NCBI RefSeq assembly: GCF_945906275.1
Contig: NZ_CAMDRA010000013.1
Coordinates: forward strand, 1 to 39,490
DNA: 39,490 nt
Source: Dongia mobilis
GTDB lineage: Bacteria > Pseudomonadota > Alphaproteobacteria > Dongiales > Dongiaceae
Reading direction: 5' to 3'
The translations under genes were made by a program, and so were the position numbers. Of the stretch, positions 2,476 to 30,154 are shown in pieces (the stretch's first letter is position 1; each line of letters begins with the position of its first letter). The notes under the pieces are model-generated. The model searched no databases and was not told the DNA's origin. It was given only the letters and a program-made list of their open reading frames with translations.

Positions 2476-4524
2476 TCATTGCGCGGCGGCCAATCCCATG
2501 CCGCGGTCGCGCCTGGTGGCAGGATGATCCGTCGCCAGGCCGAGCTGGCGGGCGAAGCGATATCCGGCATAGACCGCATGGGCGATGATGCCCGGCGCCT
2601 CGGCATCGCCGATGCGGGTGAGGCTCTTGATGCCAGCCCCTGCGAGACGGGTGCCATCTGCCTGCAGGAGGTCGAACAGCGTCGTTTCCGGTTGCCGCGC
2701 GGTGACGGGGACAAGGCTTGCCACTTCCAGCACCGAGCCCGCGCCACCATAGAGACAATCGAGTTCCAGCCGACCCGGCGTGAAGGCGCACAGGGTCTTG
2801 TTGAAATGGCAGATGATCCCTTGCGCCAGGAGATGGGCGTGGGTGGCCGCCTGGTCGCCGGTATAGCTCATCCAGGGTGCGACAACGCCGGCACTGGTGA
2901 CGAAATGCACCTCGTGCCCGGCCTCGCGCAGCTTGTCGGCGAGACCCGCGGCGAGATAATAGCCGTCATCGTCATAGATCGCGACGGGGCCCGAAGGCAG
3001 ATTGCCGCGCATGATCTCTTCCGGTGCCACGATGGCCGGCGATGGGGAGAGCACTGGCTTGCGCAGCGAACGGCCGACACCGTCGCGGCGCCAATGGCTG
3101 CCGGTCGCACAGACGACATGGGCGGCGCCGAAGTCACGCACATCGTCGGCGCTCATCTCGCTTTCCAGGAACAGTTCGACATTTTGCATCTTGGCGATCT
3201 GGCCCAGGCGCCAATCGCGCACCCGCGCCCATTCGCGCAAGCCCGGCAGGGATGATTCCAGACTGACCCGCCCACCGGGTTGGCGCGATTTTTCAGCGAG
3301 CGCCACGTCATAACCGCGGGCGCCCAGGACACGGGCCGCTTCCAGACCGGCGGGCCCCGCGCCGATCACCAGCACGCGGTCGCCGGGCGCATCGCGCGTG
3401 ATGATTTCGGGATGCCAACCCTCACGCCATTCCTCGCCCATGGTGGCGTTCTGGGTGCAGCGGATCGGCACCGAGCGCGAATTGTGCGCATAGCAGATGT
3501 TGCAGCCGATGCATTCGCGGATGTCGTCGAAACGGCCGTCACGGATCTTGTTGGGCAAGAACGGGTCGGCGATCGACGGCCGCGCTGCACCGACGAAATC
3601 GGCGATGCCGGATTTCACCAGGCGCAGCATCGAGTCCGGTGAGGTGTAGCGGCCCACAGTGACGATCGGCCCGCTCACGATTTTGCGGATCGCCCCGACT
3701 TGGTCTTCGAGCGCGCCCTCCTTGACGAAACGCGAGGGCCCCATCTCGATGCTGTAATCATTGACGGTGAGATCCCAGATATCCGGCAGGCCGTCGAGGC
3801 TCCTGGTCATCTCGAGCCAATCGTCCTGGTCTTCGGCCAACTCGCTGTTCGACGACCAGCACAGGGCGATGGCGCATTTGTGGCCGACGGCGTTCTTCAC
3901 CTCCGCCAGAAGCTCGCGCACGATGCGGGCGCGGTTCTCCGGACTGCCGCCATATTCATCCGTGCGTTGATTTTCGCGACCGAGGAAACCGTGCAGCAGA
4001 TAGTGATGGCAGGCATAGACATAGACGATGTCGAAACCGGCGGTGACAGCGCGCTTGGCTGCGTCGACATGCCATTGGCGGATATCGGCGATGTCCTGCC
4101 GATCGAGTTCCTTGGTCTGCAGCGGGTCGCCGGTCAGCACGGGCATGCTGGTCAACGACATCGGCGGCAGGCGCGAGTTCATGTTGGCCATGCGCGCGCC
4201 GCCCAGGAACAGTTCCACGCCGGCGAGGGCGCCATGCCTGTGCACCGCCTCGGTCATCAGCGCGTGCTGGCGGATGTCGGCGTCATCCCACAGGGTCTGG
4301 ATCGGATAAGGCGCGTCGTCGGAGGTCGGATGGATGGTGTAGTATTCGGTGTTGACGACACCCCAGCCACCCTCCGCCTTCATGCCGCGCATGGCGGCCA
4401 GCGTGTGCGGCCGCTCATGCCCCATGCCGCTGCAATGCGGCACCTGATAGAAGCGGTTGGGGGCGGTCACCGGGCCGATCTTGAGGGGCGTGAACAGGAG
4501 GTCGAAACGCGGGTCGCGGGTCAT
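2476..4524 (-). CDS. Trimethylamine/dimethylamine dehydrogenase-family flavin and 4Fe-4S oxidoreductase
   Basis: A 682-residue protein with the TMADH layout: an FMN TIM barrel (about 1-340), a 4Fe-4S cluster, then FAD/ADP-binding Rossmann domains starting at VLVIGAGPAG. NRFYQVPHC places a Cys at residue 31, the position that carries the 6-S-cysteinyl FMN in TMADH. Cluster cysteines are 338, 341, 344 and 356 (CIGCNIC...CTQN). Of the TMADH aromatic bowl, Tyr60 (here 61) and Trp264 (here 250) are kept, Trp355 is replaced by Asn348, and Trp105 is Phe as in dimethylamine dehydrogenase. It therefore probably oxidatively cleaves a small amine, passing electrons to an electron-transfer flavoprotein, but the exact amine is open. 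The ATG at 4524 matches family N-termini (MTRDPRFD); AGG precedes it by 7-8 bases. A longer start at 4563 would run through the operator. Confidence 0.88.
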   Translation of the reverse strand: MTRDPRFDLLFTPLKIGPVTAPNRFYQVPHCSGMGHERPHTLAAMRGMKAEGGWGVVNTEYYTIHPTSDDAPYPIQTLWDDADIRQHALMTEAVHRHGALAGVELFLGGARMANMNSRLPPMSLTSMPVLTGDPLQTKELDRQDIADIRQWHVDAAKRAVTAGFDIVYVYACHHYLLHGFLGRENQRTDEYGGSPENRARIVRELLAEVKNAVGHKCAIALCWSSNSELAEDQDDWLEMTRSLDGLPDIWDLTVNDYSIEMGPSRFVKEGALEDQVGAIRKIVSGPIVTVGRYTSPDSMLRLVKSGIADFVGAARPSIADPFLPNKIRDGRFDDIRECIGCNICYAHNSRSVPIRCTQNATMGEEWREGWHPEIITRDAPGDRVLVIGAGPAGLEAARVLGARGYDVALAEKSRQPGGRVSLESSLPGLREWARVRDWRLGQIAKMQNVELFLESEMSADDVRDFGAAHVVCATGSHWRRDGVGRSLRKPVLSPSPAIVAPEEIMRGNLPSGPVAIYDDDGYYLAAGLADKLREAGHEVHFVTSAGVVAPWMSYTGDQAATHAHLLAQGIICHFNKTLCAFTPGRLELDCLYGGAGSVLEVASLVPVTARQPETTLFDLLQADGTRLAGAGIKSLTRIGDAEAPGIIAHAVYAGYRFARQLGLATDHPATRRDRGMGLAAAQ

Positions 4525-4550: not shown

Positions 4551-4568
4551 ACTGAATGATCATTCAGT
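4551..4568. promoter_or_regulatory. Perfect 18-bp palindrome, likely TetR-type operator
   Basis: ACTGAATGATCATTCAGT is a perfect palindrome 26 bases before the ATG of the amine dehydrogenase and directly after its candidate -10 box, so a bound protein would block transcription initiation. Length and symmetry resemble TetR-family operators (known for the family; inferred here). No TetR gene is in the window. Confidence 0.6.
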
Positions 4569-5248: not shown

Positions 5249-6925
5249 CTAATTCCGCCCGCTGAGCAACCCACGTGCCACCACCTGCGCCTGGATCTCC
5301 GCCGCACCTTCGAAGATGTTCAGGATGCGGGCATCGCAGAGGACCCGGCTGATCTTGTATTCCTGGGCGTAACCGTTGCCGCCGTGGATCTGGAGGGCGT
5401 TGTCGGCGTTCGACCAGGCGACACGGGCGCCCAGCAGTTTTGCCATGCCCGCCGGGATGTCGCAGCGGCGGTCGCTGTCTTTTTCGCGGGCAGCGAAGTA
5501 GGAGAGCTGGCGGGCCATCATGGTTTCGACCGCCATCCAGGCGAGCTTGCCGTGGATGCGGGGGAAAGCATAGATCGCCTGCCCAAACTGCACGCGCTCG
5601 CGGGCATATTTGAGGCCGAGCTCCATCGCGCATTGCGCGACGCCGACGGCACGCGCGGCGGTCTGGATGCGGGCGCTTTCGAAGGTCGCCATCAACTGCT
5701 TGAAACCTTCGCCCTCGACGCCGCCGAGGAGATTTTCCGCTTTCACCTCGAACCCGTCGAAGGCGAGCTCGTATTCCTTCATGCCGCGATAGCCGAGAAC
5801 GCCGATCTCGCCGCCGCTCATGCCCTTGGCGGGGAAGGGATCGCTGGCCGTGCCGCGCGGCTTTTCCGCAAGGAACATGGAGAGGCCGCGATAGTCAGTC
5901 GAATTCGCTTCGGTGCGCGCCAGGAGGGTCATCACATCGGTGCGGGACGCGTGGGTGATCCAGGTCTTGTTGCCGGTGACGCGGTAGAGATCGCCATCCT
6001 TCACGGCGCGCGTGCGCAGGGAACCCAGGTCGGAGCCGGTATTGGGTTCGGTAAAGACGGCGGTCGGCAGGATCTCGCCGCTCGCAATCTTCGGCAGCCA
6101 ATGCTGCTTCTGCTGTTCGGTGCCGCCTAAGCGAATGAGTTCGGCGGCGATCTCGGAGCGCGTGCCGAGGGAGCCCAAGCCAATATAGCCGCGCGAGAGC
6201 TCTTCGGTCACCACGCACATGGCAAGCTTGCCCATGCCGGAGCCGCCGAATTCCTCCGGCACGGTCAGGCCGAAGACGCCCATCTCGGCCAGTTGCTGAA
6301 TGACTTCCAGCGGGATGAGGTCGTCCTTCAAATGCCACTGATGCGCGGCCTCGACATGGTCGGCAGCAAAGCTGTGGAACTGGTCGCGGACGATGGCAAG
6401 CGATTCATCATCGAGGGCCGCTTCGCCGAAATCGCCGTCGGCGATGAGGTGGGCGAGGCGCGCGCGGGCATCGGCCGAATTGCCGTGAGCCACGAGGAGT
6501 TCGGCGGCATCGAGCGGCCGCGCCGCGATGGCATCGAGGCCGAGATCTGTCAGGCGCACGATTTCGCCCTGACTCATCGGCCAGCCGCCCTTGATCTGGG
6601 CCAGATATTCGCCAAAACCGATCTGCAGGATCAACTGTTCGCGTTCGCCGAAGCGCCCGCTCTTCTCGAGGCGGCAGGCCCAGGCCAGGGATTGCTCGAT
6701 CGCCGTCACATAGGTGGCGAGCCAGGCATAGCCGTGGGCCGCGAACTGATGTGCATCGAGCGCCTTGGCGTCAACGCGGCCGCCTGCCGTGACATTGGCA
6801 TGGACGCGCGCGCGCACCGATTCCAGCACTGTCTGGGCGGCGGTAAGGCCCGACGCGCAGCAGGCAAGCAGATCGGAGAGGATCGGCGAGGGCGCCGATC
6901 CTTCCATACGCAAAGAGGCCGACAT
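5249..6925 (-). CDS. mcd: (2S)-methylsuccinyl-CoA dehydrogenase
   Basis: A 558-residue acyl-CoA dehydrogenase with the roughly 150-residue N-terminal extension characteristic of Mcd; ordinary family members are near 380-400. The C-terminal two thirds carry the family motifs FTEPNTGSDLGSLRTRAV, RIQTAARAVGVAQ, LQIHGGNGYAQEY and ILNIFEGAAEIQAQV. Mcd oxidises (2S)-methylsuccinyl-CoA to mesaconyl-CoA with FAD in the ethylmalonyl-CoA pathway of acetate assimilation. The start is taken as the ATG at 6925, which shares one base with the ccr stop (TGATG) and has GGAGG four bases upstream; a GTG one codon earlier is too close to that site. Coupling to ccr makes the assignment strong. Confidence 0.93.
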   Translation of the reverse strand: MSASLRMEGSAPSPILSDLLACCASGLTAAQTVLESVRARVHANVTAGGRVDAKALDAHQFAAHGYAWLATYVTAIEQSLAWACRLEKSGRFGEREQLILQIGFGEYLAQIKGGWPMSQGEIVRLTDLGLDAIAARPLDAAELLVAHGNSADARARLAHLIADGDFGEAALDDESLAIVRDQFHSFAADHVEAAHQWHLKDDLIPLEVIQQLAEMGVFGLTVPEEFGGSGMGKLAMCVVTEELSRGYIGLGSLGTRSEIAAELIRLGGTEQQKQHWLPKIASGEILPTAVFTEPNTGSDLGSLRTRAVKDGDLYRVTGNKTWITHASRTDVMTLLARTEANSTDYRGLSMFLAEKPRGTASDPFPAKGMSGGEIGVLGYRGMKEYELAFDGFEVKAENLLGGVEGEGFKQLMATFESARIQTAARAVGVAQCAMELGLKYARERVQFGQAIYAFPRIHGKLAWMAVETMMARQLSYFAAREKDSDRRCDIPAGMAKLLGARVAWSNADNALQIHGGNGYAQEYKISRVLCDARILNIFEGAAEIQAQVVARGLLSGRN

Positions 6926-8247
6926 CACTCCTCCGTGCAGTCTTCAAGCGTGCGACGGCCGGGACGCTTGGCCTGCACGAGCACGGCCATGTTGCCGGGC
7001 TTGTGCTTGTTCTGCCACATCTTGGTGTGGGCGGCCGGGATGTCTTCCCAGCTGAACACTTCCGACATGCAGGGGTCGATGCGGCGCTCGATGACCAGGT
7101 GATTGGCCTGGCTCGCCTGCAGCAGATTGGCGAAGTGGCTGCCCTGGATGCGCTTCTGGCGCATCCACACAAAGCGCGCGTCGAAGGTGAGGTTGTAGCC
7201 GGTGGTGCCGGCGCAGAACACGATCATGCCGCCGCGCTTCACAACAAAGCAGGAGACCGGGAAGGTCTGCTCGCCCGGATGCTCGAAGACGAAATCGACA
7301 TCGACGCCCTTGCCGGTGATGTCCCAGATCGCCTTGCCGAAGGCGCGGCATTTCTTCATGTAATCGTTATAGCCGGCGGTGTCGTCGACATCGGGGAGCT
7401 GGCCCCAGCAATCGAAATCATTGCGGTTGATGACGCCCTTGGCGCCCAGCGACATGACGAATTCGCGCTTCGATTCATCGGAGATGATGCCGATCGGGTT
7501 GGCCCCGGCCGTGGCGCAGAGCTGCACCGCCATCGATCCCAGGCCGCCGGAAGCACCCCAGATCAGCACATTGTGGCCAGGGCGCAGGATGTGCGGGCGA
7601 TGGCCGAACAGCATGCGATAGGCGGTGGCGAGGGTCAGCGTGTAGCAGGCGCTTTCTTCCCAGGTGAGATGCTTGGCGCGCGGCATGAGCTGGCGGCCCT
7701 GCACCTTGCAGAACTGCGCGAAGGATCCGTCCGGCGTCTCGTAACCCCAGATGCGCTGGCTGGGTGAGAACATCGGGTCGCCGCCATTGCATTCCTCGTC
7801 ATCGCCATCGTCCTGATTGCAATGCACGACGACTTCATCGCCGACCTTCCAGCGCTTCACCTTGGAGCCCACGGCCCAGACGATGCCCGCGGCGTCCGAA
7901 CCGGCGATGTGATACTCGGCCTTGTGCACGTCGAAGGGCGAGATGGGCTTCCCCAAACCCGCCCAGACGCCGTTGTAGTTCACGCCAGCCGCCATCACCA
8001 TGACGATGACCTCGTCCTGGTCGGGATGCGGCGTCTCGACGGCTTCGACCAGCATGGCGGTCTCGGGCGGACCGTGCCGCTCGCGGCGGATGGCCCACGC
8101 ATACATCTTTGGGGGCAGATAGCCGAGGGGCGGAATCTCGCCGATTTCATAGATGTTCTTGCCGGTGAGGGGGGCTGCCTTGGGGGCTGCCGCCTTGCCG
8201 TCACCTGCCTTGGTCTCAATTGCCACCACTTTTGCCGACTCACTCAT
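6925..8247 (-). CDS. ccr: Crotonyl-CoA carboxylase/reductase
   Basis: A 440-residue medium-chain dehydrogenase/reductase. Family marks in order are the IPPLGYLPPKMYAWAIRRER leader, AAGVNYNGVWAGLG, HIAGSDAAGIVWAVG, the acidic loop HCNQDDGDDEECNGGDP, the NADPH fold IWGASGGLGSMAVQL and VDFVFEHPGEQTFP, whose His belongs to the CO2-binding pocket described for this enzyme. It reductively carboxylates crotonyl-CoA to (2S)-ethylmalonyl-CoA, the defining EMC step. The ATG at 8247 has GGGAAG six bases upstream; longer frames to 8391 lack family similarity. It heads a ccr-mcd operon. The 415-base region to the divergent MttB-type gene must hold its promoter. Confidence 0.95.
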   Translation of the reverse strand: MSESAKVVAIETKAGDGKAAAPKAAPLTGKNIYEIGEIPPLGYLPPKMYAWAIRRERHGPPETAMLVEAVETPHPDQDEVIVMVMAAGVNYNGVWAGLGKPISPFDVHKAEYHIAGSDAAGIVWAVGSKVKRWKVGDEVVVHCNQDDGDDEECNGGDPMFSPSQRIWGYETPDGSFAQFCKVQGRQLMPRAKHLTWEESACYTLTLATAYRMLFGHRPHILRPGHNVLIWGASGGLGSMAVQLCATAGANPIGIISDESKREFVMSLGAKGVINRNDFDCWGQLPDVDDTAGYNDYMKKCRAFGKAIWDITGKGVDVDFVFEHPGEQTFPVSCFVVKRGGMIVFCAGTTGYNLTFDARFVWMRQKRIQGSHFANLLQASQANHLVIERRIDPCMSEVFSWEDIPAAHTKMWQNKHKPGNMAVLVQAKRPGRRTLEDCTEE

Positions 8248-8662
8248 GATCGCTTCCCATTCTTGCGTTAAGGCAGGGCCGGCACCTCTTGAAGCGGGCG
8301 CCTTAGCCAATGCAGCATCAAACCCATCCTGCCTTCGCGGTTGCAGCACCGTCAAGGGCTGGACGATAGAAAAGGTCGCCCATTTGGTCAAATCGGTATT
8401 GATATGGCTAACAGATAGAATAAAACGATAATTATATTACTATTTCGAACGATGCGGCGCAAAACGAACCCGAAAGGAAATCCCGGGCTTTCGACTGGAG
8501 CGCGGCTTTGATGGCAATAATCCCGCGCCCGTGCTGGAAACCGCCGCAATCCCCGAAGACTCTGCCGGTGCCAGCTGCGGTGTTTCGTCGCCCGGGCGGT
8601 TTTGCTCTTTTCTTGATTACAAAATTGATTGAACATTCATTCAATATTGAGGAGAGAATGCA
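8248..8662. other. Divergent intergenic region between ccr and the MttB-type gene
   Basis: No convincing gene lies in these 415 bases. An AT-rich stretch around 8385-8450 contrasts with the surrounding GC-rich DNA and is the most likely site of the ccr promoter, though I see no clean -35/-10 pair. A CGCCCGGGCG palindrome followed by T-rich sequence lies near 8589-8612, and an operator-like repeat is at 8628-8645. Confidence 0.5.
8628..8645. promoter_or_regulatory. Inverted repeat ATTGAA-N6-TTCAAT before the MttB-type gene
   Basis: Six-base arms flank CATTCA, ending 17 bases before the ATG and just upstream of the ribosome site GGAGAG. The core TTGAA-N6-TTCAA is identical in sequence and spacing to the repeat at 4598-4619. 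Embedded TGAACATTCA also resembles the half-sites of the palindrome at 4551-4568. Confidence 0.5.
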
Positions 8663-10162
8663 ATGCGCAGAGCAACAACGCGTCGGTCAGTCCCGGTACT
8701 GCCGGAAGGCGGCCAGGAGCGTGGCCTCCATTCCGGCGCGACCGCGCCTTACAATCCGCTGACCTCGCAGGAAGTAGACCGTATTCTCGCGGCGGCGATC
8801 TATCTGCTGGCGGAAAGCGGTGTCTGTTTCGAGCCGGGTACCGAGGCGGATTCGCTGTTGAGCACTGCGGGATGCGCCTTGAGCGGGGACGGGATCGTGC
8901 GCATTCCAGCCGATGTCACGCGCCGGGCACTGGAAACCATGGCACGCAGTGTCAAGCTGTGGAACCGGGCCGGCACCCACGCGCTCGATATCGATTGCCA
9001 TCATACCTGGTTCATTCCCGGCATGACCTGCATCAAGGCGTTCGATCCGGCGACGGGTGAGCCGCGTGACAGCTGGTGGGACGACCTTGCCATGATCACG
9101 CGCGTTGCGGATGCCCTCAGCGGCATCGACGGCGTCTGCGTCACCTGCAAGAACGTGGCCCGGTCCGACGCGGGAGGTGAGATCGACGAGTTCGTCTGCC
9201 TCGTTGAGAATACCGGGAAGCCGCTTTTCTATCTCTGCGAACAGGCAAGCTCACTGACCAAGGTGATCGACATGGCGGCCGTGATCCGCGGCGGTGCGGA
9301 TGCCTTGCGCGAGAAGCCCTATTTCCTGCAGATCGTGACACCGTTGCCCTTGAGCTATGCCGCCAGCCATATCGAGCAGATCATCATGGCGGCGCGGGCC
9401 GGGATCCCCGTTTCGACCGGCACGGTGGCCATCGGCGGTGCCTCGTCGCCGATCACGCTGGCGGGGTGCCTCGCGCATTGTCTGGCAACGGATCTTGCCG
9501 GCATGGTGCTGGCGCAACTGGCCAGCCCCGGCGCCTTCTGCATCGGCAGTTCGGACGTCAACTTCATGGAACCGGCCACGGGCGCCATCGGCAGCTTCGC
9601 ACAAGCGTCGCTTGGCGATCTGGCGGTCGCGCAGATCCGCCGTCATCTGGGCCTTCCCTCGCTGACCAGCATCGCCGGCTCCTCGGTGGCGCGCCGTTTC
9701 AACCAGGATGCGGTGTGGGAGATATCCTCGATCATGATGCAGGCTTTCTTCAGCCGGCCGGCCACCTGTCATTATCTGGGCTCGCTCGACCAGGGCCTGA
9801 CCTATTCGCTGCAGGCCCTGTTGATGTCCAACGATCTTGCTTTGCTGCTCAGAAAAATGTGGCAAGGCATTGTGGTGGATGACGAGCAACTGGCCCTCGA
9901 CATCGCGCGCGATGTCGGCCCACGCGGTAATTTCCTGGGTCAGGTTCATACGGCCCAGCATTGCCGCACGCAGGTATGGAACTCGCGCTATTTCTGGCCG
10001 AACATACCGCTGAGCAACAGCGACCGGGCTGATGCGGAATTGTTCGACCGGATCGACACCGACCTCCACCGCATCCTTGCTGAGCACAAGGTGCCGGTGC
10101 TGCCGGATGAGATCGCCGAGCAACTGTCAGCGCTCAACCGCCGGCAGGCCACCGCCGCATGA
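8663..10162 (+). CDS. Trimethylamine methyltransferase (MttB) superfamily protein, non-pyrrolysine
   Basis: A 499-residue member of the MttB superfamily, recognised by YNPLTSQEVDRILAAAIYLL, LAESGVCFE, the FIPGMTCIKAFDPATGEPRD segment and the STGTVAIGGASSPITLAG barrel region. It is continuous with no internal amber codon, so it belongs to the non-pyrrolysine branch. Characterised relatives of that branch move a methyl group from quaternary amines such as glycine betaine or proline betaine to a corrinoid protein. No corrinoid protein or activating enzyme is encoded nearby, so the partner must be elsewhere or the reaction differs. GGAGAG sits six bases before the ATG. The promoter repeat shared with the TMADH-like gene points to methylated-amine metabolism. 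The gene ends two bases before a convergent small gene. Confidence 0.87.
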   Translation: MRRATTRRSVPVLPEGGQERGLHSGATAPYNPLTSQEVDRILAAAIYLLAESGVCFEPGTEADSLLSTAGCALSGDGIVRIPADVTRRALETMARSVKLWNRAGTHALDIDCHHTWFIPGMTCIKAFDPATGEPRDSWWDDLAMITRVADALSGIDGVCVTCKNVARSDAGGEIDEFVCLVENTGKPLFYLCEQASSLTKVIDMAAVIRGGADALREKPYFLQIVTPLPLSYAASHIEQIIMAARAGIPVSTGTVAIGGASSPITLAGCLAHCLATDLAGMVLAQLASPGAFCIGSSDVNFMEPATGAIGSFAQASLGDLAVAQIRRHLGLPSLTSIAGSSVARRFNQDAVWEISSIMMQAFFSRPATCHYLGSLDQGLTYSLQALLMSNDLALLLRKMWQGIVVDDEQLALDIARDVGPRGNFLGQVHTAQHCRTQVWNSRYFWPNIPLSNSDRADAELFDRIDTDLHRILAEHKVPVLPDEIAEQLSALNRRQATAA

Positions 10163-16048: not shown

Positions 16049-16078
16049 CGTCATCCTCTGCGAAAGCGGAGGATGACG
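16049..16078. repeat. Hairpin with GAAA tetraloop after metZ
   Basis: A 13-base stem CGTCATCCTCTGC / GCGGAGGATGACG (one T-G mismatch or wobble) is closed by GAAA, a GNRA tetraloop. It begins 10 bases after the metZ stop and is not followed by a T-run, so it would stabilise the mRNA end or act as a weak terminator. The arms begin with the same CGTCATCC as the repeat at 13234. Confidence 0.75.
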
Positions 16079-16105
16079 ATTGCTTTACAGGTTAGGGAGA
16101 GCGAC

Positions 16106-16522
16106 ATGGCATCCACTAACTTTCTCACCGGCCAGTGCCTGTGCGGCGCCTTGCGCTATCGCTTCGATCCCGGCAATGCCCTGGTGGATTACTGCCATTG
16201 CAAGCGATGCCAGCGCTGGAGTGGAGCGCCGGTGACGGCGTGGGCACAGGTGCCGGTGGCACAGTTCGAGATCACCGCGGGCCATGCCAAGGCATTCCAG
16301 TCTTCGCCACTCCATCAGCGGCATTTCTGTGGCGGTTGCGGCTCGTCAGTTTACATGAGTGGCGGCGAGACCATCGGCATCCTGCTGGGGACGCTGGATG
16401 ACGCGTCGTCATTGATCCCGACCGGGCATGGCTGGACGTCCGATCGGATATCCTGGTTCAAGATCGACGATCACCTGCCGCATTGGCCGAAGGATGCGCC
16501 CCACGATGCAAATGGCAGGTAG
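16106..16522 (+). CDS. GFA-family zinc protein, second copy
   Basis: A 138-residue protein with the GFA cysteine clusters GQCLCGALRYR, YCHCKRCQRWSG and HFCGGCGSSV. Its length equals that of the GFA protein at 2050-2466 but the sequences differ widely outside the motifs, so they are distant paralogues and not a recent duplication. The start at 16106 has AGGGAGAG about five to seven bases upstream; an earlier ATG at 16073 falls inside the metZ-end hairpin and is unlikely. Activity is unknown; family proteins bind zinc and some were linked to formaldehyde-glutathione adducts. Confidence 0.85.
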   Translation: MASTNFLTGQCLCGALRYRFDPGNALVDYCHCKRCQRWSGAPVTAWAQVPVAQFEITAGHAKAFQSSPLHQRHFCGGCGSSVYMSGGETIGILLGTLDDASSLIPTGHGWTSDRISWFKIDDHLPHWPKDAPHDANGR

Positions 16523-17358: not shown

Positions 17359-17393
17359 GCGCCGCACAATAATAAGTTCGGGTGGGAGTGACC

Positions 17394-19397
17394 ATGAGTG
17401 CGGCGCCGAAGAACGAGTCGAAATCGAAAAAGGATCAGGCCTGGCTGTTCCGGACCTATTCGGGCCATAGCTCGGCCAAGGCGTCCAACGAGCTTTACCG
17501 GACGAACCTCAAGCGCGGGCAGACGGGCCTCAGCGTCGCTTTCGACCTGCCGACCCAGACCGGCTACGATTCCGACCATGTGCTGGCCAAGGGCGAGGTC
17601 GGCAAGGTGGGTGTGCCGATCAGCCATCTGGGCGACATGGTGGCGTTGTTCGACGGGCTGCCGCTCGCCGATATGAACACCTCGATGACCATCAACGCGA
17701 CGGCGCCCTGGCTGCTGGCGCTCTATATCGCCGCGGCCGAGAAACAGGGCGCAAGCCGTGCCGCCCTGCAGGGGACGGTGCAGAACGACATCATCAAGGA
17801 GTATCTTTCGCGCGGGACCTATATCTTCCCACCGGAACCCTCGCTGCGGCTGATCACCGACGTGATCAGCTTCACCTATCGCGAGGTGCCGAAATGGAAC
17901 CCCACCAATGTCTGCTCCTATCATCTGCAGGAAGCTGGGGCGACACCGGTGCAGGAACTGGCTTATGCGCTGGCGACGGCGGTGGCCGTCCTCGATCATG
18001 TGAAGGCAAGCGGGCAGGTGCCGGCGGCTGATTTTCCGCAGGTGGTGGGTCGCATCAGCTTCTTCGTCAATGCCGGCCTCCGGTTCATCACCGAGATCTG
18101 CAAGATGCGGGCCTTCACGGAATTGTGGGACGAGATCTGCCGCGATCGCTATGGCGTGGAAGATGCCAAGCTGCGGCGCTTCCGCTACGGCGTGCAGGTG
18201 AACAGCCTCGGCCTCACCGAGCAGCAGCCGGAGAATAATGTCTATCGCATATTGCTCGAGATGCTGGCGGTGACGCTCTCCAAGAATGCGCGCGCCCGCG
18301 CCGTGCAATTGCCGGCCTGGAACGAGGCGCTTGGCCTGCCGCGCCCGTGGGATCAGCAATGGTCGCTGCGGCTGCAGCAGATCGTGGCCTATGAAACGGA
18401 CCTTCTGGAGTTCGGCGATATCTTCGACGGCTCGGTCGAGATCACGCGCAAGGTCGACGCGCTGAAGGCCGAGGCGCTGGAGGAACTGGCGCGCATCGAC
18501 GCCATGGGCGGGGCGGTGGCAGCGGTTGAATCCAGCTATATGAAGCAGCGGCTCGTGGAATCGAATGCGCGGCGCCTATCGGCCATCGAGCGCGGCGATC
18601 AGACCGTGGTTGGCGTCAACAAATATACCGAGAGCGCGCCGTCACCCCTGCTCGCCGGTGGCGATGGTGGGTTCCTCGCCATCGACGACAAGGCGGAGGC
18701 GGAGCAGGTCTCCTCGCTCAAGGCCTGGCGTGCCGCGCGTGACAATGCGGCCGCGACCAAGGCGCTGGCCGCACTGGAGGCCGATGCGCGATCCGGCCGC
18801 AACATCATGGAAGCCTCGATCGGTTGCGCCCATGCTGGCTGCACCACCGGCGAATGGGGCGAGACGCTGCGCCGCGTGTTCGGCGAGTTCCGGGCACCGA
18901 CCGGTGTGGCGCGGGTAACCGTGGACCAGGGCAGCACGGCCATCGAGCAGGTACGAGCCAAGGTCGATGCCGCGAGCAAGCGATTGGGCCGGCGGATCAA
19001 GATCCTGGTCGGCAAGCCCGGCCTCGACGGTCATTCCAACGGCGCCGAGCAGATCGCGGTGCGGGCGCGGGATGCCGGGATGGAAGTGGTCTATGAGGGT
19101 ATCCGCCTCACCCCGGCACAGATCGTCAATGCGGCGCTGGAGGAAAGTGTCCATGTGGTGGGGCTCTCGATCCTGTCCGGTTCGCATATCGCCCTGGTGG
19201 GCGAGGTGATGGAGCGCATGCGGGCGCTGGGTCTGGCGGACGTACCGGTCGTGGTGGGCGGCATCATCCCGCCGGAGGATGCAAAAAGGCTGCTGGAGTT
19301 CGGCGTGGCGCGGGTCTATACGCCCAAGGATTACGATCTCAACGCCATCATGGCGGGGATCGTCTCCCTTTTGGACCAGCAATCTCAGGCGGCATGA
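17394..19397 (+). CDS. ecm: Ethylmalonyl-CoA mutase (MeaA-like), coenzyme B12-dependent
   Basis: A 667-residue mutase of the methylmalonyl-CoA mutase family. The barrel shows FRTYSGHSSAKASNELYRTN, LSVAFDLPTQTGYDSDH and NTSMTINATAPWLLALYIAA; the C-terminal B12 domain shows VGKPGLDGHSNGAEQIAVRA with the DxHxxG cobalt-ligand motif near residue 545. The length and the presence of ccr and mcd in the window favour Ecm, which converts (2R)-ethylmalonyl-CoA to (2S)-methylsuccinyl-CoA, over methylmalonyl-CoA mutase, whose alpha chain is longer (about 710-720) and has different motifs. ATG 17394 has GGGAG about six bases upstream. It overlaps bluB by four bases. Confidence 0.92.
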   Translation: MSAAPKNESKSKKDQAWLFRTYSGHSSAKASNELYRTNLKRGQTGLSVAFDLPTQTGYDSDHVLAKGEVGKVGVPISHLGDMVALFDGLPLADMNTSMTINATAPWLLALYIAAAEKQGASRAALQGTVQNDIIKEYLSRGTYIFPPEPSLRLITDVISFTYREVPKWNPTNVCSYHLQEAGATPVQELAYALATAVAVLDHVKASGQVPAADFPQVVGRISFFVNAGLRFITEICKMRAFTELWDEICRDRYGVEDAKLRRFRYGVQVNSLGLTEQQPENNVYRILLEMLAVTLSKNARARAVQLPAWNEALGLPRPWDQQWSLRLQQIVAYETDLLEFGDIFDGSVEITRKVDALKAEALEELARIDAMGGAVAAVESSYMKQRLVESNARRLSAIERGDQTVVGVNKYTESAPSPLLAGGDGGFLAIDDKAEAEQVSSLKAWRAARDNAAATKALAALEADARSGRNIMEASIGCAHAGCTTGEWGETLRRVFGEFRAPTGVARVTVDQGSTAIEQVRAKVDAASKRLGRRIKILVGKPGLDGHSNGAEQIAVRARDAGMEVVYEGIRLTPAQIVNAALEESVHVVGLSILSGSHIALVGEVMERMRALGLADVPVVVGGIIPPEDAKRLLEFGVARVYTPKDYDLNAIMAGIVSLLDQQSQAA

Positions 19398-22652: not shown

Positions 22653-24083
22653 TTACCGCCAGTTCCGGCTGCGTCCGACAGCGTTGTGGAATTTCATGCG
22701 GTGCGCGTCGGCGATTTTGTTCCGTGGCGCAAGGTGCGCCCTGGGAGCGGGCGACGGCGGCAATGTGTCCAGCGTCGCGAGGCCAGCGCCGATGAGCGCC
22801 AATTGCGCGGTGCCGAGGCCGGTGAGTTCGGTGCTGGCGGGGATCACGATGTCGCGGTCGAGCACGTCGGCCGCGAAGCCGGCGAAGTAGCCATTGTTGG
22901 CAAGGCCACCATCGATCGAGATACGGTTGCCGACCGGTGCCAGGCGCGCCATGGCGCGCAGGACTTCGTCAGCCCGGAGAGCAATTCCTTCAAGCAAGGC
23001 CTGCATCATGTCTGCCTTGCTGGTGTCCAGGCCGAGGCCGAGCCACAGGCCGGCGGCCGATCGATCCCAATAGGGGCAGCCCAGGCCACTCAAGGCCGGC
23101 ACAAAGACGAGATTGCGCGAGAGGGCGCTGGGCGCGCTGAAGGCATCGATCTCGGCATAGTCGACGAACAGACCAAGGCTGCTGGCCCAATTGACGGCGG
23201 AGGCAGCATTGTAGACGCCGCCCTCCAGCGCATAGGTCGGGGCCGCGGTGCCCAGCCGCCAGGCAATGGTCGGCAGCAGGCCGCTCGCCACATCGCGCAA
23301 CGGCTGCGCACCGACGAGGCAGAGAGCGAAAGCGCCGGTGCCGAAGGTGATCTTGGCGTCGCCGGCAGCACGACAACCATGACCGAACAGGGCCGCCTGC
23401 TGATCAACAACATTGGCGGTAACCGGTGTCTGGCCGATGCTGCCGAAATTGTCGGCGGTGGCGCGGATCTCGGGCAGGCAGTCGATGGGCACGCCGAAGA
23501 GGTCGCACAGCACGGGGTCCCATTGCAGCGTTTCCAGGTTCATCAGGCTGGTGCGCGAGGCCGTGGTCACGTCGGTGGCGAAGGTTCCTACGAGGCGGTC
23601 CAGAAAGAAACTGTCGCTGGTGCCGAAACGGAGGCGGCCCTGTTTGTGCAGCTGCCTGGCGTCTTCGACATGATCAAGAAACCAGCGCAATTTGCTGGCC
23701 GAGAAATAGGGATCGAGCGGCAGGCCGGCGCGGGCCAGCGTCGTCTCCTCGTGGCCGGCCTGTTTCAGCCGGTCGATGACGTCATTGGTGCGCGAATCCT
23801 GCCAGACGATCGCGTTGTAGATCGGCCGTCTGGTGCGCGCATCCCAGGCGATGACGGTCTCGCCCTGGTTGGCGATGCCGATGGCCTGCGCGTTGGCGGC
23901 AGATCCGAAGCAGGAGTCGAGATGGCCGATCAGTTCTTCGGGATCATGTTCGACCCAACCTGGCGCTGGCAGGATCTGGCGATGCTCAAAGCCATCCAGC
24001 GTCTGGAAGCGGCCATCCGCGTAGAGGCGGTGAAGCTTGGTGCCGGTCGTACCCTGGTCGATGGACAGAACGAAATCGGACAT
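22653..24083 (-). CDS. FGGY-family kinase, glycerol kinase-like
   Basis: A 476-residue kinase with the phosphate-binding SIDQGTTGTK, PAPGWVEHDPEEL, IYNAIVWQDSRT, DPYFSASK, the catalytic Asp of VVDQQAALFGHG, GTGAFAL and GLGCPYWDRSAAG, all matching glycerol kinase. The residue equal to Arg83 of E. coli GlpK, which contacts glycerol, is Gly here (ANQGETVIAW instead of TNQRETTIVW), while the next Glu is kept. It may therefore phosphorylate glycerol weakly or use another polyol. It starts three bases after the stop of the FAD oxidoreductase gene and is the third gene of the set. It lacks the last roughly 25 residues of the E. coli enzyme. Confidence 0.85.
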   Translation of the reverse strand: MSDFVLSIDQGTTGTKLHRLYADGRFQTLDGFEHRQILPAPGWVEHDPEELIGHLDSCFGSAANAQAIGIANQGETVIAWDARTRRPIYNAIVWQDSRTNDVIDRLKQAGHEETTLARAGLPLDPYFSASKLRWFLDHVEDARQLHKQGRLRFGTSDSFFLDRLVGTFATDVTTASRTSLMNLETLQWDPVLCDLFGVPIDCLPEIRATADNFGSIGQTPVTANVVDQQAALFGHGCRAAGDAKITFGTGAFALCLVGAQPLRDVASGLLPTIAWRLGTAAPTYALEGGVYNAASAVNWASSLGLFVDYAEIDAFSAPSALSRNLVFVPALSGLGCPYWDRSAAGLWLGLGLDTSKADMMQALLEGIALRADEVLRAMARLAPVGNRISIDGGLANNGYFAGFAADVLDRDIVIPASTELTGLGTAQLALIGAGLATLDTLPPSPAPRAHLAPRNKIADAHRMKFHNAVGRSRNWR

Positions 24084-24086
24084 GGA

Positions 24087-25304
24087 TCACTTGCGCGGTT
24101 GCAGATCGACGGTGAGGTGATGGATGCCGGTGAGGTCGATGGCGGGGACGCGCCAGGCAATGCGCCGCTCGGGCAGCACATTGATCGGGCGCGACCAGAT
24201 CTCGCGGCCATCGGCCAGGACCCGTAGCGTGCCCCTGGTGGCGACGCGCGCACGCGCCTTGAACAGCAAGGGGTCGTAGGGGCCGCGTCCGGTGAGGCGC
24301 TGGGGATAGACATAGCTCAGGGCGCCACCAGCCTCGATGCGGATGGGCGTGGCAGCTGCTGCGAGCTTGTCCTGCAAGGCTGCATGAATGGCGTGGGCTG
24401 CGGATATCCCTTCGCGATAGCATTGACCGGCGGTCTCAATGCCGCGCAGCAGATTGCCGCTGGCGAAATAGCTCGCATCCGTGCAGCGGTAGAGCTGGTC
24501 GATGACCGGGCCGCGCGTGCCGGGATCGAGTTCAAGATGGCTCTGCGTGAGCAGGGCGCTCTCGGGGCGGAACTGGCCGGTGAAGACGATGCCGTCACAT
24601 TCGAGAGTGCGCGTGACGCCACGCCGCTGGAAGCTGACGCCTTCGACCCGGTCCTGGCCCAGAATCCGCAGGTCGCTGCAATCGGTCATGACGGGTACGC
24701 CGAAGCCGATGCGCGCCACCCAATCGCCCGGACGCCAGGCCGAGATGCGCGACCGTTCCTCGATCATCGCCACGGCCTTGACGCCGACATGGCCGAGGGT
24801 AAGCAGGCTGGAGAAGGCGACCAGTTCAGATCCGATGATGACCGGCCGCTGGAAGGGCGCCTTGCCCTGCAGATAGGCAAATTGCTGCAGGGCGCCCGTG
24901 GTCATGACACCCCAAGGGCGCGTCCCGGAAACAAGGCGCGCACTGCGCGGTGTTTCGCGCGCACCCATGGCAAGCAGGACCTTTTGTGCCTGCAGCGTCT
25001 CCAACCCGTTGGGGCCGGCCAGTTGCAGGCGCCCATTTGGCTCAAGCTTCAGCACGGTATGGCCGAGGCGCAGGTCGAGATCGCTTACCCGGTCGACCAG
25101 GCGCTTCGCGAAATCGGGGCCCGTCATCAGCTTGCCGAATTGGAGCAGTCCATAGCCGGTATGGCCGCAATGGCGTGGTATGCCGCCACCTTCGGTTTCC
25201 CGGTCGATGACGGTGATGTCCTGCACGCCCAGCCGTTTCAGTTCCGCAGCCGCGGAAAGCCCAGCGGGACCGGCGCCAAGAATGATGACGTCATGCGTCT
25301 TCAT
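24087..25304 (-). CDS. FAD-dependent pyridine nucleotide-disulfide-type oxidoreductase
   Basis: A 405-residue flavoprotein beginning HDVIILGAGPAGLSAAAELK (FAD/ADP fold), with a second nucleotide-binding-like region RPVIIGSELVAFSSLLTLG and the FASGNLLRGIETAG closing motif. Proteins of this group sit beside GlpA-like flavoproteins in heteromeric dehydrogenases of glycerol-3-phosphate or amino-acid type; the pairing, not the sequence alone, suggests this. The start overlaps the upstream GlpA-like stop as ATGA. The final 80 residues (GRGPYDPLLFKARARVATRG onward) form an additional small beta-rich domain. It probably forms a complex with its upstream neighbour, transferring electrons from substrate via FAD. 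Confidence 0.82.
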   Translation of the reverse strand: MKTHDVIILGAGPAGLSAAAELKRLGVQDITVIDRETEGGGIPRHCGHTGYGLLQFGKLMTGPDFAKRLVDRVSDLDLRLGHTVLKLEPNGRLQLAGPNGLETLQAQKVLLAMGARETPRSARLVSGTRPWGVMTTGALQQFAYLQGKAPFQRPVIIGSELVAFSSLLTLGHVGVKAVAMIEERSRISAWRPGDWVARIGFGVPVMTDCSDLRILGQDRVEGVSFQRRGVTRTLECDGIVFTGQFRPESALLTQSHLELDPGTRGPVIDQLYRCTDASYFASGNLLRGIETAGQCYREGISAAHAIHAALQDKLAAAATPIRIEAGGALSYVYPQRLTGRGPYDPLLFKARARVATRGTLRVLADGREIWSRPINVLPERRIAWRVPAIDLTGIHHLTVDLQPRK

Positions 25305-26656
25305 GGCGTGATCTTGCCTTCGGCGATGGCCATCACCCGAGCGCTGCAATAGAAGCCCTGACAGCGGCCCATCATGGCGCGGGTGCGGCGTTTCAAGCCA
25401 CCGATATCGCCAGCGGGCAAGGCACCGTCGAGGGCATTCTCGATCTCGGTCCTGGTGACCCATTCGCAGTGGCAGACGATCTCGCCGCTCAACGGCGCCT
25501 GATAGGTCCGTGGTTGCTCCTCGCAGAGATTGGGAACCGGCGTCCAGATGGGCGCGCTGTTGGCGAGACGACCGAAACTTGCGCCATAGAGGCCCGCCAC
25601 ATGCTGGGCAATGCCGAGTGCCGCGGTAAGACCGGTCGAGCGAATGCCGGCCACTGTGATCCAGCGGCGGTCAGGCTGAGCGGTGATCTGATAATCCTTG
25701 AACTGGGTGGCGGGACGGAGGCCGGCATAGACCGCGGTCACGTCGACATTGGCAAGTCCCGGCAACATCTCGATGCCGCGCGCCATCAATTGCTTGAGCG
25801 CGGCCTGATCGACCTCAGCGTGAATCCGGTCTTCCTGATCCTCCGCCGTGGGGCCAACCAGCACATTGCCGAAGGCGGTGCGGCAGATGACGATGCCCTT
25901 GGTGCGTTCGGTCGGCACCGGCAGCACGATCGCCTTGAGAAGCCGTGCCGCAGGCTTGTCGAAGACAACGAACTGGCCCTTGCGCGGCGTGATCCTGAAA
26001 GGGGCCGGGCGATTGATCGCCTCGATGATATCGCCCTGATTGCCGGCGGCATTGATGACGAGATCGGCGGTTACCTCGCCCTGATTGGTGTCGAGATGCC
26101 AGATGCCGTCGAAGCGACCGCTCTCGACCCGGCAATCGCGCAGCACGATGCCGCCATGGGCGAGGCCCTGATGGACATAGGCGAGCGGTGCCGACCAGGG
26201 GTCGATGATATGCTCTCCCGGCACATGCACCCCGCCCATGGCCTTGGGCGAGAGCAGCGGCTCCTGGCGGCGGAGTGCTTCGCGGTCGATGTGCACGACG
26301 TCGGTGACATTGTTGTCATGGGCCTTGGCGAGAATACCGTCGAGCTTGCCGAGCTCTTCCTCGTTCCAGGCGACAACCAGGGCTCCGGATTTGACCAAGG
26401 GCAGGTTGAGCTGCTCGCGCAGGCTCATATACTCGCGGTAGCCCTGCTGCATGCAGGACAGCTCAAGTGAGCCGTGGGGCGCATCGAAGCCGGTGTGCAG
26501 GAGGGCGCTGTTGGCCTTGGAAGCTCCGGAGAGGATATCGCGGCCAGCTTCCAGCAGCACAGGCTTGAGGCCACCCATGGCAAGCCGCCGGAAGATGGCG
26601 CAGCCCACCACTCCGCCGCCAATGACCACAACCTGTGTATGATTGGTGTCCGCCAA
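25301..26656 (-). CDS. GlpA-like FAD-dependent oxidoreductase with C-terminal BFD iron-sulfur domain
   Basis: About 451 residues. A DAO fold starts QVVVIGGGVVGCAIFRRLAM and continues with the SGASKANSALLHTGFDAPHG region. The last 65 residues hold a bacterioferritin-associated ferredoxin-type [2Fe-2S] domain: VCHCEWVTR and RCQGFYC give four cysteines. This architecture is that of GlpA-type subunits, which oxidise glycerol-3-phosphate or a related 2-hydroxy acid or amine. I chose a TTG at 26656 (MADTNHTQ reading) with AGGGGA nine bases upstream; a GTG at 26692 is the alternative. It is the first gene of the flavoprotein-flavoprotein-kinase set. Specific substrate is not certain. Confidence 0.82.
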   Translation of the reverse strand: MADTNHTQVVVIGGGVVGCAIFRRLAMGGLKPVLLEAGRDILSGASKANSALLHTGFDAPHGSLELSCMQQGYREYMSLREQLNLPLVKSGALVVAWNEEELGKLDGILAKAHDNNVTDVVHIDREALRRQEPLLSPKAMGGVHVPGEHIIDPWSAPLAYVHQGLAHGGIVLRDCRVESGRFDGIWHLDTNQGEVTADLVINAAGNQGDIIEAINRPAPFRITPRKGQFVVFDKPAARLLKAIVLPVPTERTKGIVICRTAFGNVLVGPTAEDQEDRIHAEVDQAALKQLMARGIEMLPGLANVDVTAVYAGLRPATQFKDYQITAQPDRRWITVAGIRSTGLTAALGIAQHVAGLYGASFGRLANSAPIWTPVPNLCEEQPRTYQAPLSGEIVCHCEWVTRTEIENALDGALPAGDIGGLKRRTRAMMGRCQGFYCSARVMAIAEGKITP

Positions 26657-26723
26657 AACTCGCCATCCCCTGCTTGGGAGGGAGTGTGCCACGGCTAGGA
26701 AAATAAATCACGCGCCCAGAAGA

Positions 26724-26850
26724 GACACCTCACCCAAAGCCCCTCTCCCCAGTGGGGCGAGGGGCTTTGGAGTGGACTCACTCAGAACCCCGTCGTCCCG
26801 CGCCGTCGGCGGAGGTCGGCATTCGCCTCCGGGCGGGGTGAGGGGGTGTC
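26724..26850. repeat. Nested multi-hairpin intergenic element
   Basis: Outer arms GACACCTCACCC (26724-26735) and GGGTGAGGGGGTGTC (26836-26850) are complementary apart from a three-base bulge. Inside are a strong hairpin (26734-26770: CCAAAGCCCCTC with GAGGGGCTTTGG plus four more pairs) and a weaker one (CGGAGG 26810-26815 with CCTCCG 26826-26831). It lies after the aldehyde dehydrogenase stop and may end that transcript, though no T-run follows on the minus strand. Resembles dispersed cruciform repeats. Confidence 0.7.
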
Positions 26851-26855
26851 TTCGC

Positions 26856-28247
26856 TCAGATCTGCGTGCGGAAGTGGAAGGATTTCGGCCGGGTCAGCAT
26901 TTCATAGCCGACGCGGGACAAGGTTGCGCCGCGACCGGAATCCTTGACGCCAACCCAGGCCAGGGCCGGATCGAGATAATCGCAGCGGTTCATGAAGACA
27001 GTGCCGGTCTCGAGCTCGTTGCCGATCTTGCGTGCGGCAATCTCATCCGAGGTCCACAGGGCCGCGGTGAGGCCGTATTTGCTGTCGTTCATCAGCTTCA
27101 CGGCCTCGTCATCGCCCTTCACCTTCATGATGCCGATGACCGGACCGAAGCTTTCTTCCGACATCACCGACATGGAATGATCGACATTCACCAGTACCTG
27201 CGGCGCCACATAGGGGGTGCCGGGTTTGTCGGCCGGGAACAGCTTGGTGTCGATGAGCGCCTTGGCGCCGTGCTTCACGGCATCGGCCACTTGGCCGCGC
27301 ACGAACTCGGCAGCCGAGGTGCGGACCATCGGCCCGAGATTGGTTGCTGTGTCGAGCGGGTTGCCAAGCTTGTACTTCTTGGTGAGATCCACAAAGCCGT
27401 CGACAAACTTGTCGTAAAGGCTCTCATGCACATAGATGCGCTCGATGGCGCAGCAGCATTGGCCGGAATTGAACATGGCGCCATCGACCAGGTTCTCGAT
27501 TGCGTGGGCGAGGTTGGCGTCGGCGCGGACATAGGCTGGGTCCTTGCCCCCAAGCTCCAAACCCATCCCCATGAACTTGCCGAGCGCTGCCTGCTGCACG
27601 GCATGGCCGCCGGCAACCGAGCCGGTGAAGTTCACGTAGGCCACTTCGGGTGCCGCGATCACTTTGGCCGTGGCGTCATGGGTGAGGACGAGATGCTGGA
27701 ACAGGCCCTTGGGCAAGCCGGCCGCATCGAAGGCCTGCTGGAAATCCTCGGCGCAAAGCGGTGTCTGGGCGGAGTGTTTCAGGACCACGGAATTACCGGC
27801 CATCAGCGCCGGGACCACGCCGTTGACCGAGGTGAGATAAGGATAGTTCCACGGCGCCACGATGAAGACGACGCCGAGCGGCTCGCGGTGCAGCACCCGG
27901 GTGAAGCCGGGTTTGTCGGTGAAGCTGACATCGGCCAGCGCTTCCGGGGCGAGATTGATCATGAAGCGGGCACGTTCTTCGAAGCCGCGCATTTCGAACG
28001 GGCTCTGCGAAATCGGCCGGCCCATCTGACGGGTGATTTCCTCCGCGTGCTTGTCCTTGCCCTTGAGAAATTCGTCGACGGCCTTGTTCAGGATCCGGGC
28101 ACGCTCGGCGATCGAGGTTCGGCGCCATTCGACCTGCGCCTTGGCGGCATCCTTGAGGACCGCGGCGATTTCAGCCGGGCTGTTGTAGGGGCGCTCGACA
28201 TAGACGGAATTGTCGATCGGCGTGATGGTCTTCTGAATGGCGGCCAT
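26856..28247 (-). CDS. Aldehyde dehydrogenase (NAD(P)-dependent)
   Basis: A 463-residue aldehyde dehydrogenase with VAPWNYPYLTSVNGVVPALM (about 130-150), LELGGKDPAYV bearing the general-base Glu, and FNSGQCCCAIERI with the catalytic Cys. The ATG at 28247 has AGG eight bases upstream; a longer start at 28271 would include the terminator tail. It lies behind the glutamine-synthetase-like gene and an APC permease, an order like the puu-type polyamine route, where an aldehyde dehydrogenase oxidises gamma-glutamyl-aminobutyraldehyde. Whether this enzyme takes that aldehyde or another (for example succinate semialdehyde) is not readable from the sequence. Confidence 0.9.
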   Translation of the reverse strand: MAAIQKTITPIDNSVYVERPYNSPAEIAAVLKDAAKAQVEWRRTSIAERARILNKAVDEFLKGKDKHAEEITRQMGRPISQSPFEMRGFEERARFMINLAPEALADVSFTDKPGFTRVLHREPLGVVFIVAPWNYPYLTSVNGVVPALMAGNSVVLKHSAQTPLCAEDFQQAFDAAGLPKGLFQHLVLTHDATAKVIAAPEVAYVNFTGSVAGGHAVQQAALGKFMGMGLELGGKDPAYVRADANLAHAIENLVDGAMFNSGQCCCAIERIYVHESLYDKFVDGFVDLTKKYKLGNPLDTATNLGPMVRTSAAEFVRGQVADAVKHGAKALIDTKLFPADKPGTPYVAPQVLVNVDHSMSVMSEESFGPVIGIMKVKGDDEAVKLMNDSKYGLTAALWTSDEIAARKIGNELETGTVFMNRCDYLDPALAWVGVKDSGRGATLSRVGYEMLTRPKSFHFRTQI

Positions 28248-28274
28248 GTGTAACCTCAGGGGTTTGGTCAAATG

Positions 28275-28312
28275 AGAAAAGCACCCGCGCTCCCCTCAGG
28301 GAAGGCGGGTGC
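28275..28312 (-). terminator. Intrinsic terminator between glutamine-synthetase-like and aldehyde dehydrogenase genes
   Basis: On the minus strand GCACCCGC (28312-28305) pairs with GCGGGTGC (28288-28281), the inner CTTCCC/GGGGAG also pairs, and TTTTCTC follows. It sits 12 bases after the GS-like stop, so the aldehyde dehydrogenase would be made from readthrough or from a separate start. Confidence 0.8.
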
Positions 28313-28323
28313 TTCTTGCAGGA

Positions 28324-29697: not shown

Positions 29698-29828
29698 TTG
29701 TGGTTCCCCCTGTTGGATCCATGAATTGGAATTTAGGCCGCAGATAGACTTGCGGCAACGATGTCTTGGAAGAAGTAAATGTGGCTCCCCGACGTCGGGT
29801 TGGTGCGGCCGGCGTGGATAGCGCCGGT

Positions 29829-30036
29829 CAGCCCCCCTCTGTCCTTGAGACTTGAGAGATTCACCGTGGCGCGATGGCCCGGTTTACTCCGTCGGTGAGG
29901 CGACGACGTCCGTCGCCCGCTTTCCAGAGATGACTTTTCCTACCTGGTCCTTTTGCCTGAGAGTTTCCGGGGGAGGTTGCTCCTTCGGCGCCGAACCGGC
30001 CGCGCAAAGAGATGCGGCCGTGCCAGTCTCTCCCGA
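29829..30036 (-). ncRNA. Tandem glycine riboswitch
   Basis: On the minus strand two glycine aptamers lie in series. The first (about 30036-29930) reads GGGAGAGACTGG, then GCGCCGAAGGAGCAA, CCCGGAAACTCTCAGGCAAA and AGGACC. The second (about 29928-29830) reads CTCTGGAAAG, ACCGACGGAGTAAACC, GGTGAATCTCTCAAGTCTCA and AGGACAGAGGGG. These match the remembered glycine riboswitch consensus of GNAAGGAGCAA and CTCTCAGG...AAGGACAGAG. Glycine binding usually turns the downstream gene on. After aptamer 2 come two GC-rich hairpins (CCGGCG/CGCCGG and CCCGACGTCGGG) without a T-run, so control may act on translation or through Rho. Confidence 0.92.
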
Positions 30037-30058
30037 GGTCGGAGGATTGTGCGCGCGG

Positions 30059-30087
30059 AGTGTGTGATTGGCCCGGAGAAAGGTCAA
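30059..30087 (-). promoter_or_regulatory. Candidate promoter of the riboswitch and GS-like gene
   Basis: On the minus strand TTGACC (30087-30082) and CACACT (30064-30059) are 17 bases apart. It lies between the terminator of the APC gene and the first aptamer, which is where a separate promoter is needed. The -10 is weak. Confidence 0.45.
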
Positions 30088-30092
30088 GTCAC

Positions 30093-30127
30093 AAAAAGAA
30101 AAAGGGAGGCAGTTTGCACTGCCTCCC
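30093..30127 (-). terminator. Intrinsic terminator of the APC permease gene
   Basis: A perfect 10-base stem GGGAGGCAGT / ACTGCCTCCC (30127-30118 and 30113-30104) closed by a four-base loop is followed on the minus strand by TTTTTCTTTTTG. It cleanly separates the permease transcript from the glycine riboswitch. Confidence 0.93.
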
Positions 30128-30154
30128 CAGTCGATTTGTTGATTTGTTGTGGGA

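Follow-up and report, generated by a model that had tools for sequence, protein, structure and literature searches.

A rebuilt active site in a large branch of the trimethylamine dehydrogenase family, represented in Dongia mobilis, that probably demethylates larger N-methylated compounds

The trimethylamine dehydrogenase (TMADH) family is usually understood through three or four well-studied enzymes, and a gene of Dongia mobilis raises the question of what a member with an altered substrate bowl oxidises. The gene occupies positions 2476-4524, minus strand, of the 39,490-nucleotide stretch analysed here (the window) and encodes 682 amino acids, with an N-terminal FMN barrel carrying a [4Fe-4S] motif and C-terminal ADP/FAD-type domains; the mechanically called open reading frame begins at 4563, and the N-terminus of the family is obtained with a start at 4524. 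It is clear that the product is a real flavoprotein of the TMADH/histamine dehydrogenase (HADH) family, with homology beyond chance. It matches the Oxidored_FMN (228 bits), Pyr_redox_2 and OYE-like second alpha-beta domains, and a phmmer search against the PDB aligns it over nearly its full length with 6de6 (636 bits, E-value 7e-190), 3k30 (612), 6l6j (569) and TMADH itself, 1djn (545, 2e-162). An AlphaFold2 model built on 33 sequences has a mean pLDDT of 88.7; with Foldseek and VIA-align 2, HADH, 6l6j and TMADH rank first, and alignment to 3k30, 6l6j, 2tmd, 1djq and 6de6 gives Z 47.0-48.1 and rmsd 2.2-2.4 over 656-676 residues. Full-length homology, the three-domain fold, the flavin-attaching Cys and four cluster cysteines are all present, and the family assignment is well supported.

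Its position within the family was read from a tree of 119 rows. Contigs were scanned with an alignment of the four orthologs, and of 564 confirmed loci the 80 best were kept; because this ranking followed similarity to the query, clade counts are not a census. Both the tree and the residue counts omit L050 and also L012, L013 and L016, regarded as duplicates of L040, L041 and L119, and the genes of L120-L122 and of genome G323 lie outside the tree. Eighty-four rows, including the window enzyme, form one clade (SH-aLRT 100) apart from TMADH, HADH and 6l6j, while TMADH pairs with L030 (support 100), separate from the other 117 rows. The clade extends through alpha- and gammaproteobacteria, Myxococcota and Actinomycetota, and the window enzyme belongs to it by tree position and by its DYxxEMG-type loop. 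Three further genomes of the genus contain orthologs (77-79% identity), which sit with the window enzyme on a long shared branch (length 0.62); the genome itself has four close paralogs (49-55% identity), and L119, also from Dongia mobilis, is 52% identical and of another paralog type. A shallow check of mostly freely accessible papers found no description of this Tyr264/Glu267 clade, a weak negative; the clade is apparently a large, unstudied branch of a known family, and the novelty is limited to that.

TMADH numbering was verified on 1djn (Cys30, Tyr60, Trp105, Tyr169, His172, Arg222, Trp264, Asp267, Trp355, Tyr442 and the cluster cysteines) before it was used to read the active site, and the roles given to these residues are in part those we presume. 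The original prediction held that the flavin-attaching Cys, the cluster cysteines, Tyr60 and Trp264 were kept and that Trp355 and Trp105 had become Asn and Phe. The cofactor residues are indeed intact: Cys31 (4432-4434; this and all codons below are on the minus strand) aligns with FMN-attaching Cys30, is Cys in every one of the 84 clade rows and presumably binds the flavin covalently, and Cys338, Cys341 and Cys344 (motif CIGCNIC, 3493-3513) with Cys356 (3457-3459) correspond to TMADH cluster cysteines 345, 348, 351 and 364, all four ligands being found in 119 of 119 rows. Tyr60 is likewise kept as Tyr61 (4342-4344), as are Tyr169 and His172 (Tyr170 and His173), and the two replacements are found as described, with Phe106 (4207-4209) in the place of Trp105 and Asn348 (3481-3483) in that of Trp355. 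Asn348 is the fourth residue past the third cluster Cys, where HADH carries Asp358, and was placed by this distance because MAFFT inserts a one-residue gap there. Trp264, by contrast, is lost, the aligned residue being Tyr257 (3754-3756); no shift of register restores a Trp, because the window enzyme is free of Trp between residues 250 and 366 and Trp250 pairs with TMADH Trp254. The earlier assignment of Trp264 may have been a confusion with Trp250. Two changes had gone unmentioned, that of Asp267 of the catalytic triad to Glu260 (3745-3747) and that of Arg222, which we take to contact the flavin, to Cys222 (codon TGC, 3859-3861). The substrate loop reads IGDIAEWGEDAGPSRF in TMADH and VNDYSIEMGPSRF in the window enzyme, and residues 251-270 are a less certain part of the model (block pLDDT 73 and 64). 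Tyr60 alone is thus retained from the aromatic bowl Tyr60/Trp264/Trp355 of TMADH proper; the view that the trimethylammonium bowl is altered and trimethylamine an unlikely substrate holds, and it understated the change, since both Trp264 and Trp355 of the three-residue bowl are replaced, and not one alone.

Most of these alterations are not peculiar to this enzyme but the normal state of the clade, since the clade residue counts match them. Tyr stands at 264 in all 84 clade rows and Trp in 30 of the 35 others; Glu stands at 267 in 83 (L046 has Asp), as against Asp in 33 of the 35. Position 355, counted as the fourth residue after TMADH Cys351, is Asp in 61 and Asn in 23 of the 84, one or the other in 30 of the 35, and Trp in only two of the 119 rows, TMADH and L030. 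Clade and residue changes are both well supported, and the clade-wide exchange of the catalytic Asp for Glu and of the bowl Trp for Tyr implies a different substrate set, such that these proteins should not be annotated as trimethylamine dehydrogenases. Position 105 is another matter: it is Trp in 77 clade rows and Cys in three, and Phe is confined to the four window orthologs, which also have Ile74 and Cys171 in common (Cys171 is found elsewhere in the clade too). Only Phe105, Ile74 and Cys222 thus distinguish the window enzyme or its ortholog group. Because the dimethylamine dehydrogenase of Hyphomicrobium also has Phe there, the window enzyme might be a dimethylamine dehydrogenase, and dimethylamine was among the substrates first proposed; yet the restriction of Phe105 to four orthologs, the differences at two further bowl positions (Tyr257 and Asn348) and the clade neighbourhoods described below, which point to larger N-methylated compounds, make this very improbable.

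Cys222 is found in the window sequence alone. Arg occupies the position in 83 clade rows and all 35 others (118 of 119 in total), the three closest orthologs included, and replacement of this otherwise invariant residue could impair the window enzyme, leaving it slow or inactive; or else an error of sequencing or assembly produced the codon, as TGC can be one base from an Arg codon. Set against such a defect are an otherwise intact frame, 77-79% identical to the orthologs, and the retention of all other cofactor residues, and we regard a spoiled or misread copy as distinctly unlikely.

A different chemistry must also be weighed, that of HADH or of 6-hydroxypseudooxynicotine (6-HPON) amine oxidase, in which the C-N bond would be oxidised on the chain side and ammonia or methylamine, not formaldehyde, released. 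The two HADH structures (636 and 612 bits) and 6l6j (569), which is 6-hydroxypseudooxynicotine amine oxidase, outscore TMADH (545), the Asp or Asn at position 355 resembles HADH, and the related enzyme Pno releases methylamine according to the accessible part of one report (PMC5500553). In the tree the clade nevertheless stands apart from the HADH rows, it has the TMADH-like Tyr60 in 84 of 84 rows where HADH has Gln, and its genes adjoin genes of N-demethylation type. Chain-side oxidation is accordingly judged unlikely, and N-demethylation is the reading pursued here.

The neighbourhoods of clade genes are informative as to the compounds concerned. In a survey of 82 sources (80 loci, L120 and the window), open reading frames were clustered and the main clusters were typed through a single representative each; the counts are lower bounds, because many loci are short and the picking of reading frames missed genes. 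At least 35 sources carry a PotA-like ATPase, at least 31 permeases (named from their adjacency to the ATPase and from the L120 annotation), at least 25 a BetI-like TetR regulator, at least 21 a class III aminotransferase, at least 13 an oxidoreductase of DAO and GCV_T domains, at least 10 a Rieske oxygenase and at least six, the window included, an MttB. Rieske betaine-type oxygenases, BetI-like repressors, polyamine-type transporters and aminotransferases agree with the larger polar amine that was the other substrate first proposed, and this branch of the family probably demethylates larger N-methylated compounds. An annotated plasmid cluster of Parasedimentitalea combines ring-hydroxylating oxygenases, an ABC transporter, an aminotransferase, an aminomethyltransferase and a TetR regulator with an enzyme in which positions 264 and 267 are Tyr and Glu but position 60 is Phe, the residue recorded there for L120. 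In G323, an MttB, a TMADH-like enzyme, a Rieske oxygenase, a BetI-like regulator, two FAD amine oxidases, a GcvT-like protein and an aminotransferase occur together. No Rieske/aminotransferase set was seen near the window dehydrogenase gene.

A clade gene often shares its locus with another TMADH-like gene, which carries Trp264 and either Glu or Gln at 60. Such pairs of a Trp264 gene (Glu60 or Gln60) and a Tyr264/Glu267 gene, mostly adjacent, were observed in L058, L061, L062, L071, L083, L094, L096, L100, L104 and L105, and in L118 (5897-12568) two TMADH-like genes of the Glu60/Trp264 type form a tandem array with one of the Tyr264/Glu267 type. The pairing suggests two successive demethylation steps. 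A plasmid search with a Glu60-type paralog yielded no named function.

From these neighbours we infer, with somewhat better than even confidence, that the window enzyme is an N-demethylating dehydrogenase of a larger amine, acting after a quaternary-amine demethylase. In the active site rebuilt across the clade, with Tyr for Trp264, Glu for the catalytic Asp267 and Asp or Asn at 355, a tertiary or secondary amine of larger size than trimethylamine would be oxidised at an N-methyl group, the electrons presumably passing from FMN through the [4Fe-4S] cluster to a carrier, and formaldehyde and the demethylated amine would be the expected products. The first methyl of a quaternary ammonium compound would have been removed earlier, by a Rieske oxygenase in many relatives and by a non-pyrrolysine MttB in a sub-branch, perhaps including the window genome. 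The link to a Rieske or MttB demethylase offers a testable route to the substrate.

The candidate functional partner in the window is P0002, a non-pyrrolysine methyltransferase of the MttB superfamily (8663-10162, plus strand, 499 aa; PF06253, 195.7 bits), which has no in-frame stop and scores 237.5 against the pyrrolysine trimethylamine methyltransferase model, below its cut-off of 525. An MttB-like gene lies divergent from and next to a clade gene in five loci (L045, L090, L092, L107 and L109), and these head-to-head proteins share 55-67% identity with the window MttB, as against 20-34% for the other MttB matches listed from its own genome and 60 relatives. The type is rare: at E <= 1e-100 it was found in two of 385 sampled genomes of the class (its own and G323), in one of 398 sampled from the phylum (its own) and in six of 11 of the order of G323. 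A TMADH-like gene adjoins the MttB in each of these last six carriers, and in G323, the only one whose residues were read, this gene has Tyr264 and Glu267. Two notions about this group were discarded: pyrrolysine, since the TAG inside the match listed for three genomes is the natural terminal stop, and a role for MttB as replacement of the Rieske oxygenase in otherwise equal clusters (G323 compared with Parasedimentitalea), since the G323 cluster holds a Rieske oxygenase too. An aerobic demethylase of MttB type is plausible because homologs of MtgB-type glycine betaine methyltransferases occur in marine roseobacters, as stated in the accessible part of PMC12478193.

In the window the MttB and dehydrogenase genes are 4.1 kb apart, with two minus-strand genes between them: an acyl-CoA dehydrogenase with an N-terminal extension, methylsuccinyl-CoA dehydrogenase-like (mcd, 5249-6928), and crotonyl-CoA carboxylase/reductase (ccr, 6925-8391; TIGR01751, 605 bits against a cut-off of 378.55), whose reading frame runs from 8391 with its first ATG at 8247. 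Both are syntenic neighbours: an mcd-like gene of 87-95% identity lies between ccr and the dehydrogenase on the same strand in the three orthologous loci, and in L040 both ccr and mcd were found by tblastn. These three loci gave no MttB match within the 20 kb examined, and the window MttB is therefore a local addition. A partnership of MttB and dehydrogenase may exist in this genome, a weaker proposition than N-demethylation, as the long branch and the orthologs without a nearby MttB leave the link not assured for the window enzyme.

Upstream of the dehydrogenase gene lies an operator-like, perfect 18-bp palindrome, ACTGAATGATCATTCAGT (4551-4568), and its core is retained ahead of each of the four ortholog genes. 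Its 16-mer has one perfect occurrence in the genome, as against none for a reversed control, and three other sites at two mismatches. The only other window site within two mismatches (first-order Markov mean 0.33 per window), TGATTGAACATTCA at 8626-8639, lies 23 bp before the MttB start codon, and is no more than suggestive, because the motif was chosen after the first site had been seen. Assignment of this second site to ccr was rejected, as none of the three orthologous loci without MttB has it in front of ccr. The palindrome is absent from the intergenic regions of the five head-to-head MttB pairs and of G323. TetR-type control of the window genes is presumed. Taken together, a two-stage aerobic N-demethylation can be envisaged, in which a rare non-pyrrolysine, corrinoid MttB would act first and a Tyr264/Glu267 TMADH-like enzyme would then release formaldehyde, the two sharing a TetR-type operator beside ccr and mcd; the full scheme is tentative and rather doubtful.

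Other genes of the window were also recorded. Genes of ethylmalonyl-CoA-pathway type, at 5249-8391 and 17382-19397, comprise ccr, the mcd-like gene and a B12-dependent mutase. A GFA family gene of glutathione-dependent formaldehyde-activating type (16073-16519) would fit formaldehyde release, and GFA matches of 38-66% identity occur in the three orthologous loci. An EamA transporter (982-2403) follows the dehydrogenase gene on the same strand, with a homolog within several kb in three of three orthologous loci. The run at 22656-31705 encodes an FGGY kinase, an aldehyde dehydrogenase, a glutamine-synthetase-like enzyme, an amino acid permease and FAD oxidoreductases, of which one has a BFD-like [2Fe-2S] domain, and it resembles a cluster for amine or polyamine catabolism.

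Comparison with the characterised systems is instructive. TMADH (Methylophilus, 1djn) has the fold, the cofactor residues, Tyr60, Tyr169 and His172 in common with the window enzyme at 44% aligned identity, and differs by Trp264Tyr, Trp355Asn, Trp105Phe, Asp267Glu and Arg222Cys, with Arg at its Tyr442 and Glu at its Val344. HADH (Nocardioides simplex, 3k30; Rhizobium sp., 6de6) likewise has the fold, the 6-S-Cys-FMN cysteine and the [4Fe-4S] cysteines in common, together with Tyr and His of the triad, an acid or amide at 355 and the best PDB score, but lies outside the clade and carries Gln, Trp and Asp at positions 60, 264 and 355, where the window enzyme has Tyr61, Tyr257 and Asn348, and Glu260 in addition. 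The accessible part of PMC10180351 gives the triad of the Rhizobium HADH as Tyr171, His174 and Asp265 with Trp263 in the bowl, and the Nocardioides equivalents as Gln65, Trp267 and Asp358. In 6l6j (HisD/Pno) the fold and domain order are those of the window enzyme (Z 47.6, rmsd 2.3, 656 residues aligned), but Ala replaces the flavin-attaching Cys, and positions 60 and 264 are Glu and Trp; Pno acts on an N-methylamine, according to the part of PMC5500553 cited above. The window MttB, for its part, shares PF06253 with the MttB superfamily and differs from the pyrrolysine type in its uninterrupted frame and its score below the cut-off of that model.
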